Shown: positions 3,925 through 25,716 of the stretch, in pieces | How positions within the stretch are numbered: the stretch's first letter is position 1 | Layout of the letters: each line of letters opens with the position of its first letter | Assembly (NCBI GenBank): GCA_029011315.1 | Contig: JAQXLA010000017.1 | Coordinates: 62,001-126,000, forward strand | Length of the DNA stretch: 64,000 nt | Source of the DNA: Desulfovibrionaceae bacterium | Lineage (GTDB): Bacteria; Desulfobacterota; Desulfovibrionia; Desulfovibrionales; Desulfovibrionaceae | Direction: 5' to 3' | Made by a program: the position numbers and the translations under genes | Notes under the pieces: generated by a model | What the model was told of the DNA's origin: nothing | What the model saw: the letters and a program-made list of their open reading frames with translations, nothing else | Database searches by the model: none

Positions 3925-5004
3925 ATGAAACATTTCTTGAAGCTGCTGTATGCAGCTCTGGCATTCTGCATGGTCGCCGGATCGGCAAATGCCCAGGATC
4001 TCAAAGGTGAATACAAGCTGAGTGTTGTTCCCGGTGCCAGCTCCGGATGGGGAAAGACGGCTACATATTTTGCCGATCTGGTTCGCGAACGCTCTCAGGG
4101 GCGCATTAACATCAAAGTCTACCATAACAGTCAGCTCATGGCCGGAAAACAGACTTCAGAATTTATGATGGTTCGTAACGGTGCCATTGATTTTGCCGTG
4201 GCTTCAACCATCAACTGGTCGCCCCAAATTAGAGAGCTGAACCTGACAGCCATGCCCTTTATGCTGGCTGTACAGCCCGATCGCTATAAGGCAGTTGATG
4301 CGATTCTGGACGGAAAAGCCGGCAGAATGATGACGGAAGCGGTCGAAAAAAAAGGCGTAACCGTTCTGGGATGGAGCGAAAATGGCTATCGCGAAATGAC
4401 GACCAGCGTCGGACCAATCACATCCCCCAATGATATGAAGGGATTGAAGATCCGCGTTGTCGGCAGCCCTATCTTCATTGAAAGTTTCCGTGCTCTTGGT
4501 GCCAATCCGCTGAATATGAATTGGTCCGAAGCGCAGACAGGATTTCAGCAGGGGCTTGTGGATGGTCAGGAAAACCCAACGAACGGCATCAATATTCCTT
4601 TGAAAATATGGAACTATCATAAGCATCATACCGACTGGCATTATCTGATCGATCCGCTGATCTTTGCTGTAAATCCGAAGATCTGGAAGACCTTTGCTCC
4701 GGCTGATCAGGAACTTATTCGCTCCTGCGTCCGCGATGCCGCCGTATACGGAAAGGCTCTTTCCCGGCTCGGCATGGACGACGGCACAGCTCTCTCCTAT
4801 CTGAAAGGCATCGGCATGGAACTGGAGTACACGGATCCTTATGCCTTCATGGAATCCCACGGCATGATTGTAACCAAACTCAGCAGCGATCAGATTCGCG
4901 CCTTCTATGAAGCGACCCAAAGCGTCCGGGACGCCTGGACCAAAAAAATCGGAGAACAGCTGATAAAAGCTGCCTTGGAAGATATGGCTGCAGCAGCCAA
5001 ATAA
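3925..5004 (+). CDS. dctP: TRAP transporter solute-binding protein (DctP family)
   Basis: Periplasmic binding component of a TRAP transporter, which delivers carboxylate-type ligands to a Na+-driven DctQM permease. It has 359 residues. The first 23 form a signal peptide with a hydrophobic core and ANA-QD cleavage site. The mature part shows the DctP pattern, including the region around GLKIRVVGSPIFIE where an Arg usually binds the ligand carboxylate, and TDWHYLIDPL further on. The start codon follows GAGGAGG at normal spacing. The ligand is unknown; in this type of organism taurine-, sulfonate- or C4-dicarboxylate-like compounds are possible, which is speculation. First gene of dctPQM. Confidence 0.92.
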   Translation: MKHFLKLLYAALAFCMVAGSANAQDLKGEYKLSVVPGASSGWGKTATYFADLVRERSQGRINIKVYHNSQLMAGKQTSEFMMVRNGAIDFAVASTINWSPQIRELNLTAMPFMLAVQPDRYKAVDAILDGKAGRMMTEAVEKKGVTVLGWSENGYREMTTSVGPITSPNDMKGLKIRVVGSPIFIESFRALGANPLNMNWSEAQTGFQQGLVDGQENPTNGINIPLKIWNYHKHHTDWHYLIDPLIFAVNPKIWKTFAPADQELIRSCVRDAAVYGKALSRLGMDDGTALSYLKGIGMELEYTDPYAFMESHGMIVTKLSSDQIRAFYEATQSVRDAWTKKIGEQLIKAALEDMAAAAK

Positions 5005-5017
5005 GTTATCTGTCTGT

Positions 5018-5039
5018 GCGGCGCGGCTTTCCGCGCCGC
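5018..5039 (+). other. Strong intercistronic hairpin between dctP and dctQ
   Basis: Perfect 9-bp GC stem GCGGCGCGG / CCGCGCCGC with a 4-nt loop, sitting in the 49-base gap and not followed by a T run. Such hairpins can protect the upstream dctP message from 3' exonucleases or attenuate the permease genes, matching the usual excess of binding protein over permease. The role is inferred. Confidence 0.6.
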
Positions 5040-22229: not shown

Positions 22230-22267
22230 CAAAGAGATACGTGTTCCCTGTTTATTTTATATTTCTA

Positions 22268-22284
22268 GGGCGTGTCTGCAAACC
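22268..22284. repeat. Left terminal inverted repeat of the IS
   Basis: GGGCGTGTCTGCAAACC, preceded by the putative target duplication TA (22266-22267). Confidence 0.9.
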
Positions 22285-22402
22285 TGAAAAAGTTTCCAAC
22301 AGCCCAAAAATTTTCTGAACCTCCAAAGCCCGAAATTGGTGATTCCGCCTGATTCGTAGGCGAAAACGCCGGAAACGGCCCTGGCTTCCCTTTAAGATTC
22401 AA

Positions 22403-22445
22403 AAAGTGGTATACTGAAGTATGGACTACTGCAGTATACCACTTT
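22403..22445 (+). promoter_or_regulatory. Perfect 14-bp hairpin with the transposase start codon in its loop
   Basis: AAAGTGGTATACTG (22403-22416) is fully complementary to CAGTATACCACTTT (22432-22445). The 15-base loop contains ATG at 22421. In insertion sequences such hairpins hide the start codon when transcription enters from outside, limiting transposase synthesis; that role is inferred here. Confidence 0.75.
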
Positions 22446-23179
22446 CTCTATAGCAGCGAATCAAGGAAATCCTGCCGACTGAAGGTTCCCCAAAGGGTGG
22501 ACGCCCTTGTGGGGAGCTGCTGACGTTCATTACCGCCTTGCTCTGGATACTCAAGACTGGCGCGCCTTGGCGAGCTCTTCCTGAGCGTTTCGGTTCCTGG
22601 AAAACAGTCTATTCTCGCTTCCGTCGATGGCTTGCCAGAGGCTATTTCGATGCCATGTTTAGCTTCTTTACAGCTACAGAATCAGACCTCGAAACAGTGA
22701 TGATTGATGGTAGCTATGTCCATGTACACCAGCACGCATCAGGAGCAAGAGGCGGTAGCGCAGGACAAGCGATCGGCGTGAGTCGCGGAGGCAAAACTAC
22801 CAAAATCCATGCAGTAGTAGATGCGCTGGGTAATCTGCTGAAATTCGTGATTACCGCTGGCAACGTGTCAGACTATCGGGAGGCAAACGGTTTGTTGGAA
22901 GAGTTCCATGACTGCGAAGTGTTGGCAGACAAGGGATATGACAATGCTCCACTGGTGGAGCAGCTTGAGGAACAAGGCTGTACAGTTGTCATTCCTTCGC
23001 GGTCGATGCGACTACAACCTCGACCATTCGATAAATACGCCTATCGTGGACGACACCTCATCGAAAACTTCTTCCAAAAAGTGAAAGCTTATCGCCGGGT
23101 GGGTACTCGGTACGATAAGCTTTCGAAAGTGTTCGGTGGGTTTGTGACGCTGGCGGCGGTGTTTATTTGGCTACATTAG
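22421..23179 (+). pseudogene. IS5-family transposase with an in-frame amber codon
   Basis: DDE transposase. Starting at ATG 22421 the frame reads ten codons (ending in PLSL), hits TAG at 22451, and then continues without interruption as QRIKEILP, KGGRP, LLWILKTGAPWR to the stop at 23179. IS5 relatives have a Trp at about this point, so a TGG to TAG change is the simplest explanation. The catalytic residues remain: Asp in MIDGSYVHVHQ, Asp in LADKGYDNAP and Glu in HLIENFFQKVKAYRR, followed by RYDKL. A shorter product from TTG at 22538 (213 residues) would keep these but lose the N-terminal DNA-binding part. There is no frameshift of the two-ORF IS427 kind. The 3' end overlaps the NYN gene by 17 bases. 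Confidence 0.8.
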
Positions 23180-23978
23180 TAGTTGCTACTTCGTTTGATA
23201 TTTTTTCTCTTATTTTATTACGAAGTCTCTTTTTTTCTTCATTGCCAAGCATTCTTTTCATTGTACTTTTTGCAATATATAGTATTTCTTTATCTATATC
23301 TTGAGGTATATACATTTTGCTTGTTGAAATTATTACCTTTTTGGACTCGTCAAGTTTTTCAAGTATATTATCTACAAGTCTGTCTATCGACGGAGGCTCT
23401 TCTGGTGTATTATTATTAACAACGATAGTCTCTTTTGCATCTACTCCATGAGCAAAACTTTCAATTTCGTTTCTGCTCCATTCCCTATTCTGGTCAACTT
23501 CTTCGCATAAAACAGGAGAGGAAGCTTTCGAGCTGTACATTTCGAGTCTATGTATTCTTACACCTAATGCCTGAGCTGCTGAAATTCCAGGTACCAAGTC
23601 TGCATCACCTGACAAAATAAGGGCGTGCGTTATGGCTTTATTTTGTGCAAGAGAAATAAGATCAGACATCAAAAGGCCATCAACACCTTTCTGTTGGCCT
23701 TCTTTGTTTATACTTCCATAACGCATTTTGATATCATCAAGTTTACAAATGGCACGATGTTGTTCACTCGGAACTCCATTAGCTCCAACCCCATCATACC
23801 AGTATATACGCAACATAGAACAAGTAGGAAATTGTTTTTCAACCTCTCTAAGTAGAGATTCACGCATAAGTTCTGCATTTAGAATAATATCTTCACGCTT
23901 TTTTCTCTCACTAAATAATATATGAGATACTTGAATCCAAAAATATCCTGCATCTACGAATACAGCAACGCGCTCCAT
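23163..23978 (-). CDS. NYN-domain (LabA/DUF88, PIN-like) putative ribonuclease
   Basis: NYN domains are Mg-dependent PIN-like nucleases, mostly acting on RNA. The 271-residue protein shows the acidic active-site pattern: VAVFVDAGYF (Asp9), QKGVDGLLMSDLISLA in the middle and LILSGDADLVPGISAAQALG, all within residues 1-165. A linker follows and then a basic helical C-terminal part containing IPQDIDKEILY and EKKRLRNKIREKI, found in other LabA-type proteins. The ATG at 23978 follows GGAG by 8 nt; an in-frame start 33 bases upstream lacks a better site. The gene is clearly AT-richer than the chromosome, lies inside the IS ends, and its final codons run antisense into the transposase gene. Confidence 0.85.
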   Translation of the reverse strand: MERVAVFVDAGYFWIQVSHILFSERKKREDIILNAELMRESLLREVEKQFPTCSMLRIYWYDGVGANGVPSEQHRAICKLDDIKMRYGSINKEGQQKGVDGLLMSDLISLAQNKAITHALILSGDADLVPGISAAQALGVRIHRLEMYSSKASSPVLCEEVDQNREWSRNEIESFAHGVDAKETIVVNNNTPEEPPSIDRLVDNILEKLDESKKVIISTSKMYIPQDIDKEILYIAKSTMKRMLGNEEKKRLRNKIREKISNEVATTNVAK

Positions 23979-23996
23979 TTCAATCACTCCATAAGG

Positions 23997-24050
23997 GAAG
24001 AAGCCTCCCAAAAGAGAGGCTTCTTCTAATTAAAAGTGTCTTTGGGACAC
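23997..24050 (-). promoter_or_regulatory. Two hairpins in the leader of the NYN gene
   Basis: GAAGAAGCCTC / GAGGCTTCTTC (23997-24007 and 24016-24026) is a perfect 11-bp stem. GTGTC / GACAC (24036-24040 and 24046-24050) is a smaller one. Both lie between the NYN promoter and its ribosome site and lack a T run on either strand, so leader structure or translational control is more likely than termination. Confidence 0.5.
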
Positions 24051-24101
24051 CGAGGTAACATCAATAAATCTGAAATTTTCAAAAAATCTTCAGATAAAAT
24101 T

Positions 24102-24130
24102 TAAATATACGCTAATCTTCAGAATGTCAA
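24102..24130 (-). promoter_or_regulatory. Promoter of the NYN gene with repeated TTCAGA half-sites
   Basis: On the minus strand: TTGACA (24130-24125), then TATATT at a 15-base spacing or TATTTA at 17. Three copies of the half-site TTCAGA/TCTGAA surround it (24069-24074 inverted, 24089-24094 and 24118-24123 direct). AATCTTCAGA occurs twice, 29 bases apart. This suggests an operator for a regulator bound around -10. Confidence 0.55.
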
Positions 24131-24422
24131 GACTACTCTAGTCGATGATAAGCAAAACAGATTATGATCCAGCCATAACAATATTTTGGGTAGCATCTCC
24201 TCTAACCAAGGATAACGTGGCAGGAAGTGCTACCAACACTCCTTCCCCTTTTTAAATAGTGTTAATATTGTTGGCTGTCAATCAGAGTGTTTAGCCACTG
24301 CTGGAAACTTTCTCTCGCAAGGGCTTTCTTTTTGTTGAATCCCACTTGGTCAAGGAAGGCTGCTTGCCGACATAGTTTAACTCAAAAGCCCCGCCTGATT
24401 TCTCAGTCGGGGCTTCGTTTTT
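24131..24422 (+). ncRNA. Candidate structured non-coding RNA inside the IS element
   Basis: About 290 bases without a convincing ORF but dense in helices. GACTA/TAGTC forms a 5-bp hairpin (24131-24143). A junction is closed by AGCC+AACAATATT (24171-24185) pairing with AATATTGTT+GGCT (24264-24276), with only a 2-base bulge. Inside, GGTAGCA/TGCTACC (24189-24195 and 24228-24234) and AACACT/AGTGTT (24235-24240 and 24258-24263) abut each other and the closing stem, giving a compact three-way junction. Then come CAGAGTG/CACTGCTG (24283-24303), GCAAG/CTTGC (24317-24321 and 24363-24367), and a final GC-rich terminator. No known RNA class was recognised. Plus-strand orientation is inferred from the terminator; no clear plus-strand promoter was found. 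Confidence 0.45.
24386..24422 (+). terminator. Intrinsic terminator at the end of the structured segment
   Basis: AAGCCCCG / CGGGGCTT (24386-24393 and 24408-24415) with inner CTGA-tttc-TCAG, followed by CGTTTTT on the plus strand. The other strand also has a T4 run, so it could act in both directions. Confidence 0.7.
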
Positions 24423-24433
24423 GGGCAGAGTAG

Positions 24434-24450
24434 GGTTTGCAGACACGCCC
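24434..24450. repeat. Right terminal inverted repeat of the IS
   Basis: GGTTTGCAGACACGCCC, the exact reverse complement of the left end, followed by TA (24451-24452). Confidence 0.9.
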
Positions 24451-24451
24451 T

Positions 24452-24484
24452 AAAAAAAGGGCATCTTCCGATGCCCTTTTTTTT
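24452..24484 (-). terminator. Intrinsic terminator of lysC
   Basis: A7-GGGCATC-TTCC-GATGCCC-T8 palindrome, active in either direction. It begins at the base pair where the IS ends, so the element lies directly against the lysC terminator. Confidence 0.9.
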
Positions 24485-24495
24485 AGCTGAACAGA

Positions 24496-25716
24496 CTATT
24501 CAGCTGTTTTATCAAGCTCGAACGTATCATGAAGCGTTCTCACGGCAAGCTCCACGTACTTTTCCTCAATGAGACAGGAAATTTTGATTTCTGAGGTACT
24601 GATCATCAGAATATTGATATTTTCCCGGAAAAGCGCATCAAATGTTCTGGAAGCGACACCGGAATGATTGCGCATACCGACGCCTATTACCGAAACTTTC
24701 GCTACATTGGTCGCCGTATCAATGCCAACTCCGAAACTGTCCACCAGAGGCTTCACAATGGCAGTGGCATCCTCCATAGACTTTTTCGGCACTGTAAAGG
24801 ACATATCAGTCACGCCATTTCTGCTGGCTGTCTGCACAATCATATCGACGACGATGCCGTTTTCCGCAAGCGCAGAAAATACTGAAGCGGATACGCCGGG
24901 GCGATCCGGCAGATCGCAGAGCGTGATGCGGGCCTGATCGCGATCATAAGCAATTCCGGAAACAAGCACTGACTCCATCATGGCGTCCTCCTGAGTGACG
25001 AGCGTTCCCGGATGATCATTGAATGTGGAGCGAACCTGCACGGGAACGTTGTACTTTTTTGAGAACTCCACAGAACGGATTTGCAAGACCTTTGCACCCA
25101 TGGATGCCATCTCCAGCATTTCATCGTACGAAACGCGATCCAGTTTGCGCGCAGAAGAACAGAGATTAGGATCTGTCGTATAGACCCCATCGACATCCGT
25201 ATAAATGTCACAGGGGCATGAATCAAGTGCCGCAGCCAACGCCACGGCAGACGTATCGGATCCGCCACGCCCAAGAGTGGTGATCCGTCCGTCTTTCGTC
25301 ACGCCCTGAAATCCTGCGACGACCAGGACGTCATTATCTTCAAACGCTTTCAGAATGTATTCCTTGGAAATGGACAAAATGCGCGCCATTCCGAAAGAAT
25401 CATCAGTCAGGATGGGAATCTGCCAGCCGAGAAGAGATTTCGCACGAATACCGCTGTCTTTCAACATCATGCTGAAAAGGACGATCGAAGCCTGTTCTCC
25501 AGTCGACAGAAGGCTGTCAAGTTCAGCAGGATCGGGTTTTTTAGCCCAACGCCCAGCCAGTTCAATCAGCTTATTGGTTTTTCCGGATCGGGCGGACAGA
25601 ACGACAAGAACCTTATAGCCCTTATCCAATTCAGCGCAAACCTTACCGCGAACCATCTTCAGGCGATCGATATCGGAAACGGATGTGCCGCCAAATTTCT
25701 GCACTAGAATTCGCAT
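24496..25716 (-). CDS. lysC: Aspartate kinase
   Basis: Phosphorylates L-aspartate, the committed step to lysine (and diaminopimelate), threonine and methionine. The 406-residue monofunctional enzyme starts with the nucleotide-binding VQKFGGTSVSD and carries TLGRGGSDTSAVALAAAL near residue 150 and DIYTDVDGVYTTDPN soon after. Two ACT domains occupy about 265-406 (including DRPGVSASVFSALAENGI and GVGMRNHSGVASRTFDAL), the usual site of lysine/threonine feedback. The ATG at 25716 follows AAGGA by 7 nt; a longer in-frame ORF is rejected for lack of family match. It lies 43 bases after tsaE, probably in one operon. Confidence 0.95.
   Translation of the reverse strand: MRILVQKFGGTSVSDIDRLKMVRGKVCAELDKGYKVLVVLSARSGKTNKLIELAGRWAKKPDPAELDSLLSTGEQASIVLFSMMLKDSGIRAKSLLGWQIPILTDDSFGMARILSISKEYILKAFEDNDVLVVAGFQGVTKDGRITTLGRGGSDTSAVALAAALDSCPCDIYTDVDGVYTTDPNLCSSARKLDRVSYDEMLEMASMGAKVLQIRSVEFSKKYNVPVQVRSTFNDHPGTLVTQEDAMMESVLVSGIAYDRDQARITLCDLPDRPGVSASVFSALAENGIVVDMIVQTASRNGVTDMSFTVPKKSMEDATAIVKPLVDSFGVGIDTATNVAKVSVIGVGMRNHSGVASRTFDALFRENINILMISTSEIKISCLIEEKYVELAVRTLHDTFELDKTAE

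Follow-up and report, generated by a model that had tools for sequence, protein, structure and literature searches.

The 64,000-nt stretch of Desulfovibrionaceae DNA analysed here (the window) carries a gene for an NYN ribonuclease beside non-coding DNA that folds strongly, which raises the question of whether an RNA is encoded there, on which strand, and what it might do with the nuclease. A first-pass annotation had proposed a plus-strand RNA divergent from the NYN gene, built as a compact three-way junction followed by a terminator, that might guide, inhibit or be cut by the NYN protein, and had drawn a comparison with type III toxin-antitoxin systems and mobile-element-linked RNAs. In a 2016 review, type III systems comprise three families of ToxN-like proteins and are ordered as promoter, RNA, Rho-independent terminator and endoribonuclease gene (PMC5086642). 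From the features collected in Table 1 and from related loci, we think it somewhat more probable than not that the locus is a type III-like RNA-antitoxin/NYN-ribonuclease module, with the RNA as the putative antitoxin, although on the other strand and with another structure than had been proposed.

Table 1 Features of the window and of two related loci (L109 and L112)
Feature	Position	Strand	Basis or remark
IS5-family element, 2183 bp, with NYN-RNA passenger	22268-24450	.	DDE transposase between inverted ends
Left terminal inverted repeat GGGCGTGTCTGCAAACC	22268-22284	+	perfect 17 bp; 0 matches expected by chance in the window
Transposase ORF, DUF4096 and DDE_Tnp_1	22538-23179	+	upstream part of the frame from ATG 22421
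NYN ribonuclease gene	23163-23978	-	Pfam NYN 1.2e-8; start agrees with homologues
Predicted NYN-associated RNA	23990-24096	-	ends inferred: start expected of the promoter, tail of the terminator
Terminator-like hairpin, 13 bp, UUUU loop	23997-24026	-	fold; 18 nt before NYN ATG
Class A hairpin GGTGTC-CCAAA-GACACT	24035-24051	-	held-out R2 match and covariation
5' hairpin of the RNA, ATCTGAA...TTCAGAT	24068-24095	-	fold; sequence not conserved
Promoter, TTGACA 24130-24125, 17 nt, TATTTA 24107-24102	24102-24130	-	9/12 consensus bases
Three-way junction of the first-pass annotation	24170-24277	either	fold; homologue searches, none found
Distal second promoter-like site TTGACA-17-TATTTA	24253-24281	-	consensus match only; overlaps closing stem of three-way junction
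Terminator-like hairpin with T run	24385-24422	+	near right end of IS element
Right terminal inverted repeat	24434-24450	-	perfect 17 bp
Hairpin-unit arrays	L112:3435-3533, L112:3757-3953, L109:1069-1140		

Results and discussion

The flagged three-way junction

Refolding of the flagged region returned the pairs that had been described, namely a closing stem of 14 pairs with a 2-nt bulge (24170-24175 and 24178-24185 with 24264-24277 of the plus strand; 13-14 pairs had been claimed) enclosing two hairpins, 24189-24234 and 24235-24263, each of which abuts the other and the stem. The GC-rich terminator with its T run was also recovered on the plus strand, and the statement that no ORF explains the region holds, since the ORF list contains none of 60 aa or more across the structure on either strand. 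The hairpins said to flank the junction fared less well: the left one is present with 5 bp only, and the right flank (24280-24385) shows nothing out of the ordinary (z = -0.62). As a computation the fold is real, and it is unusual, not unique, and without strand preference; the segment 24160-24290 gave z = -4.04 for the plus strand and z = -3.65 for the minus strand (200 shuffles per strand), and z of -4 or below was reached by 5 of the 246 130-nt tiles in a plus-strand tiling of the window.

The claim that this structure is the NYN-linked RNA had to be abandoned. The flagged region is single-copy in its own genome, the only match elsewhere in the genomes of 59 relatives (own included) is 27 nt long and lies outside the junction, nothing matching the junction was found among the PLSDB plasmids, and blastn against 196 loci gave it no relative. 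It was not found at the other NYN loci, and neither of the two covariance models described below (R1 and R2) matches it. A sigma-70-like promoter scan of 23900-24600 returned no site on either strand. Although the stable fold (z about -4) and the plus-strand terminator would suit a plus-strand RNA ending at 24422 and acting on or with the NYN protein, we consider such an RNA very improbable, as the 196 loci gave no homologue and the scan no plus-strand promoter, and as the structure folds about equally stably on the minus strand and has a closing stem that overlaps a minus-strand promoter-like site. A reading of the junction's 14-bp inverted repeat as a MITE was likewise rejected because the region is single-copy.

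The three-way junction is not the conserved part of the locus and sits upstream of the module's promoter. Its region may hold a second minus-strand promoter, as judged from the distal TTGACA-17-TATTTA site. The flagged structure could be an inverted-repeat operator or a second, degenerate minus-strand RNA unit read from this site (24281-24253); the latter would have a parallel in the tandem RNA units of a related locus, L064, but neither R1 nor R2 matches the structure, which is not followed by a minus-strand terminator having a long T run. We regard this interpretation, which concerns the flagged structure only and is compatible with the module proposed here instead of competing with it, as doubtful.

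The predicted NYN-associated RNA of the window

That a conserved RNA is encoded on the minus strand, between the flagged structure and the NYN gene, is nearly certain. The annotation was therefore right to give the NYN protein an RNA partner but chose the wrong strand and structure, the conserved RNA running from about 24096 to 23990 of the minus strand. Its region (23991-24100, minus strand) folds with z = -5.35, and it is co-directional with the NYN gene. The promoter was found by a 9-of-12 scan and missed by the stricter sigma-70-like scan. The RNA carries a single class A hairpin, closed by a G-U pair, and the tail of its terminator-like hairpin (CCTTAT) is only moderately U-rich. Above gathering scores, Rfam models matched two tRNAs only in the window and one tRNA in 20 related loci; the matches obtained with lax thresholds were all far below gathering scores.

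Layout and RNA classes at related NYN loci

Single-sequence queries with the NYN proteins of the window and of L067 found nothing in genomes and viral contigs, and alignment A1 used as the query of the same collections yielded 99 loci. Upstream regions were compared in 85 loci, comprising 73 of these 99, the window and 11 others (L052-L058, L062-L064 and L066); most Streptomyces loci, L098, L113, L131 and L165 were left out. Four sets of loci are near-identical (L062, L065, L089 and L113; L149 and L150; L151 and L154; L094 and L153).

By reading, the common order at these loci begins with a promoter, which is followed by a short RNA and then by a terminator placed 9-76 nt ahead of the NYN start. 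A scan placed a terminator-like hairpin directly before the NYN gene in 70 of the 85 loci; its end lay 5-35 nt from the NYN start in 67 of these 70, against 5 of 425 mononucleotide-shuffled sequences, and a promoter agreeing with the consensus at 9 or more of 12 bases was present in 34 of the 70 loci against 6.2% of the shuffles. The carriers of this layout span several phyla, plasmids and phages. It is absent from the remaining 15 loci (a Rhodanobacteraceae/Lysobacterales group, Streptomycetaceae and some singles), so NYN proteins of the family can exist without it.

Two classes of RNA were recognised. Class A, the type found in the window, has a 6-bp hairpin with a CCAAA loop, and class B, found in alphaproteobacteria, phages and other phyla, is built on an 11-bp helix whose loop often contains CUAC, followed by CAUAC and the terminator. 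L070 and L072 have two tandem hairpins. Short UA motifs flank the hairpin in both classes (CUAC or CUAU in the loop or before the helix, AUAC or CUAN after it); these recurring motifs are possible cleavage or binding sites of the NYN protein.

Covariation and model searches

The covariance analysis that the first-pass annotation had called for had no homologues to work on at the flagged junction, and succeeded for the minus-strand RNA, whose homologues stand beside NYN genes and show compensatory changes. In nine class A sequences 98.1% of cells were paired and four of the six pairs had changes on both sides, with a covariation score of 0.574 against 0.335 when shuffled (reached in 0 of 500 shuffles) and at most 0.204 in slid controls. 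The ten seeds of class B had 95.0% paired cells against 89.7% shuffled, and 13 both-side changes against 5.0. When the covariance model R1 was used to align 38 class B sequences, both-side changes occurred in every one of the 11 pairs of the long helix, the number of both-side cells was 113 against 33.3 shuffled, and 95.1% of cells were paired against at most 59.9% in slid controls; this alignment was fitted to R1, and the R1 seeds match by construction. Both models hold nested pairs only.

R1 misses the RNA of the window, where its best match was at 24428-24484 of the plus strand (E 0.16), and none of its matches in the whole genome was significant; a separate class A model was therefore needed. 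This model, R2, was built from seven class A hairpins with the window excluded. In the 64-kb window its sole match was 24061-24027 of the minus strand (E 6.9e-5), and in the 1.49-Mb genome the same site was the best match, with a modest E of 0.0016, the next being at 0.10. Across 80 sources, the best 10 of 16 R2 matches all lay just upstream of NYN genes and included four held-out loci (the window, L054, L069 and L068).

R1 gave 44 matches at E of 0.001 or below in 90 sources: the 10 seeds, 33 upstream of NYN genes (in 32 further loci, some of them near-identical) and one at L118. An RNA-first search with R1 of 397 genomes of one order returned 13 matches at the same threshold. NYN was encoded directly downstream of seven of the eight matches above 35 bits (two of these seven being seed loci), and the eighth, of 51.5 bits, was without NYN and lay 130 nt from a contig end. 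Between 30 and 33 bits one match in five had NYN, and the other four resemble plain terminators. Since 12 candidates were scored per genome, misses are likely.

The pattern of variation bears on whether the RNA could instead be a cofactor or guide with which NYN forms a ribonucleoprotein that recognises phage or other RNA. Wide variation of the helix sequence between constant flanking motifs, together with the phage and plasmid contexts, would suit such a role, but the variable helix keeps its pairing, which leaves neither strand available for pairing with a target, and no spacer-like or target-matching stretch was noticed. We judge a guide or cofactor improbable.

The NYN protein

The NYN gene starts at ATG 23978; the TTG at 24011 given in the ORF list falls inside the terminator hairpin. 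The AlphaFold2 model of the protein has a pLDDT of 91.8, and its best fold match in the PDB is the NYN protein 2qip (VPA0982; E 1.7e-6), a structural relative of the Bacteroides fragilis NYN RNase according to PMC11346440. PF01936 (NYN) is the sole Pfam match in 33 of 33 members, and the catalytic aspartates D8, D99 and D124 (numbering of alignment A6) are invariant in all 33. The protein gave no match in a PDB sequence search, has no name in NCBIfam, and found no convincing match in PADLOC (HEC-09 at E 0.0022; the protein is not named there); it matches PHROG 5783, which is of unknown function there.

An NYN ribonuclease of B. fragilis, associated with CRISPR, offers an enzymatic precedent. 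According to PMC11346440, it is an RNase whose activity is lost in the D13A variant, works beside a type III CRISPR system and is proposed to trim crRNA. It shares with the window protein the NYN fold, three conserved aspartates and the spacing of the last two (25 residues for D99-D124, equal to D118-D143 of the B. fragilis enzyme; PMC11346440), whereas no dedicated upstream RNA is described for it in the sections of that paper considered here. No CRISPR system was noticed in the examined part of the window and no reverse transcriptase, as a retron would carry, among the ORFs of 19-30 kb.

Within the phylum of the host the NYN gene is rare and patchy, occurring in 3 of 395 genomes, its own included, at a threshold of 1e-15. 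A quick tree was made of the 79 NYN proteins that remained when lengths of 200-420 aa were kept. Loci were labelled A, B or none by reading their RNAs, B meaning that the terminator layout is present and not always a covariance-model match. The class A loci form one clade with a support of 99, requiring 1 change on the tree against 8.7 when shuffled, although Rhodocyclaceae, a gammaproteobacterium, Acidobacteriota, Synergistota and the family of the window are all represented in it. The class of the RNA is inherited along with the clade of the NYN protein.

Mobile contexts, arrays and additional RNA units

On three viral contigs the NYN gene stands among structural genes, between a tail tube gene and the tape measure gene in L151, between tail genes in L155 and near the terminase in L148, a placement to be expected of an accessory 'moron'. 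A phage integrase adjoins the NYN gene in L056, and on conjugative plasmids of Sinorhizobium (L062 and L065, about 3941-5026) a RES toxin and its Xre/MbcA/ParS antitoxin lie beside the NYN module.

Two Rhodothermales loci have tandem arrays before the NYN gene, each unit being a hairpin plus a linker. The array of L112 repeats a 31-nt unit 6.4 times, and that of L109 a unit of about 30 nt 2.4 times. L112 has another array farther from the NYN gene on the upstream side, with 2.8 copies of 35 nt and then a terminator-like hairpin; in L109 one such unit was recognised by eye. Array copy number differs between these two related species, and TRF found no other such array close to NYN in the 85 loci (83 without). 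L064 has two RNA units and a single NYN gene. In L118 a class B unit (4912-4986, minus strand; 42.5 bits) lies on the opposite strand, downstream of NYN. The sequence just upstream of NYN in that locus looks like a degenerate unit in which A runs replace the UA motifs.

The main rival to an antitoxin is a cis-acting leader, that is, an attenuator through which NYN would bind or cut its own 5' region and tune its own expression, with the enzyme serving in housekeeping or defence. A terminator just before NYN in 70 of 85 loci and an RNA that is nearly always in cis are what such a leader predicts, and the layout alone fits attenuation. Against this, the two units of L064, the opposite-strand unit of L118 and the arrays of L109 and L112 point to a product that acts as RNA, and alignment A5, which was fitted to R1, shows no conserved antiterminator pairing. 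We hold a cis-acting leader to be unlikely, while granting it more weight than a guide or cofactor. L064, L118 and the arrays likewise lend some, if thin, support to an RNA acting in trans, as a type III-like antitoxin would.

Proposed function and relation to known systems

In the module that we favour, a small structured RNA that has a promoter and a terminator of its own is followed directly, on the same minus strand, by the gene of an NYN ribonuclease with an intact active site. Most transcripts would stop at the terminator and provide the RNA, while a minority would read through and provide the nuclease. By binding the NYN protein, the RNA would hold it inactive, as happens in type III systems and in AbiF-RCd22. 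Loss of the RNA, with plasmid or phage loss, infection or stress as the presumed trigger, would free the putatively toxic nuclease.

Type III toxin-antitoxin systems, to which the first-pass annotation had pointed, are the closest working model. The NYN-RNA module is built like one and probably works like one. With ToxIN, CptIN and TenpIN (PMC5086642) it shares the gene order, and it is found on phages and plasmids; the tandem repeat arrays of type III RNAs have counterparts in 2 of 85 NYN loci. Judged from sequence, the single promoter of type III systems and the Rho-independent terminator between RNA and toxin gene have counterparts here (terminator-like hairpin in 70 of 85 loci; 24026-23997 in the window), and the window adds the distal promoter-like site. 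Unlike type III systems, the module encodes a Rossmann-fold nuclease of NYN type and no ToxN homologue (Pfam NYN only; fold 2qip), and its RNA is usually a single hairpin, as in the window, with one hairpin and no tandem array. A pseudoknotted RNA that neutralises the toxin by binding it is a further mark of type III systems. Lacking ToxN and, usually, an array, the NYN-RNA module falls outside the strict type III definition.

An RNA-neutralised case later than the type III review is AbiF-RCd22, in which an RNA some 100 nt long, containing a small motif twice and equipped with its own promoter and terminator, precedes the toxin gene in a prophage (PMC12373285). The NYN module shares the RNA with promoter and terminator and the protein gene that follows but differs in its components: AbiF-RCd22 combines an Abi_2 protein with an RF03085 RNA, whereas the members of the NYN module have Pfam NYN only (33 of 33), RF03085 had no match in the window or in 20 related loci, and no Abi_2 match was found.

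Taken beyond this locus, the data suggest, with about even confidence on our part, a broadly distributed and so far undescribed class of NYN/PIN-like RNA-antitoxin modules, borne by phages, conjugative plasmids and an IS element, with at least two co-evolving RNA classes and with repeat arrays in Rhodothermales. No paper on an NYN-RNA module was found in the collection of openly accessible papers that was searched. If the proposal is correct, RNA antitoxins have evolved on another nuclease fold, and the common annotation 'NYN domain-containing protein' and PHROG 5783 would gain a function.

The IS5-family element carrying the module

The link to a mobile element made in the first-pass annotation proved sound, as the NYN-RNA module is the passenger of an IS5-family element. 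This has the DDE transposase, terminal inverted repeats and short target duplication of the family, the flanks CTA and TAA indicating a probable TA duplication at 22266-22267 and 24451-24452. Like other members, it combines a DDE_Tnp_1/DUF4096 transposase with 17-bp ends; it is IS427/IS1031-like. Related elements from the same bacterial family (L171 and L173) have near-identical ends (GGGTGTGTCTGCAAACC) and are simple elements of about 825-860 bp, in contrast to the window element, in which the transposase stop (23179) is separated from the right end by some 1.25 kb of passenger DNA, comprising the NYN gene and the flagged region. Carriage by an IS suggests a route by which NYN-RNA modules could spread.

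In the upstream part of the transposase frame, an in-frame TAG (22451-22453) occupies the place of a Trp codon in a simple relative, so that the element may have lost the ability to move on its own and may depend on transposase supplied in trans. The element adjoins the aspartokinase gene (lysC); in a genome of the same genus (G002) a different gene lies downstream of lysC, and no such element was seen there. On another contig of the window's own genome (C13; L059:1-47) another element end, whose terminal repeat is near-identical, stands at the contig end, and further IS copies may therefore hide in assembly gaps.

Two further repeats were noted within the element. A 19-bp near-perfect palindrome (22403-22445) covers the start of the transposase frame and the sequence immediately before it. 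A second inverted repeat, matching in 15 of 17 bases (22286-22302 and 24298-24314), lies next to the left end and 119 nt away from the right end, and may be the scar of a rearrangement.
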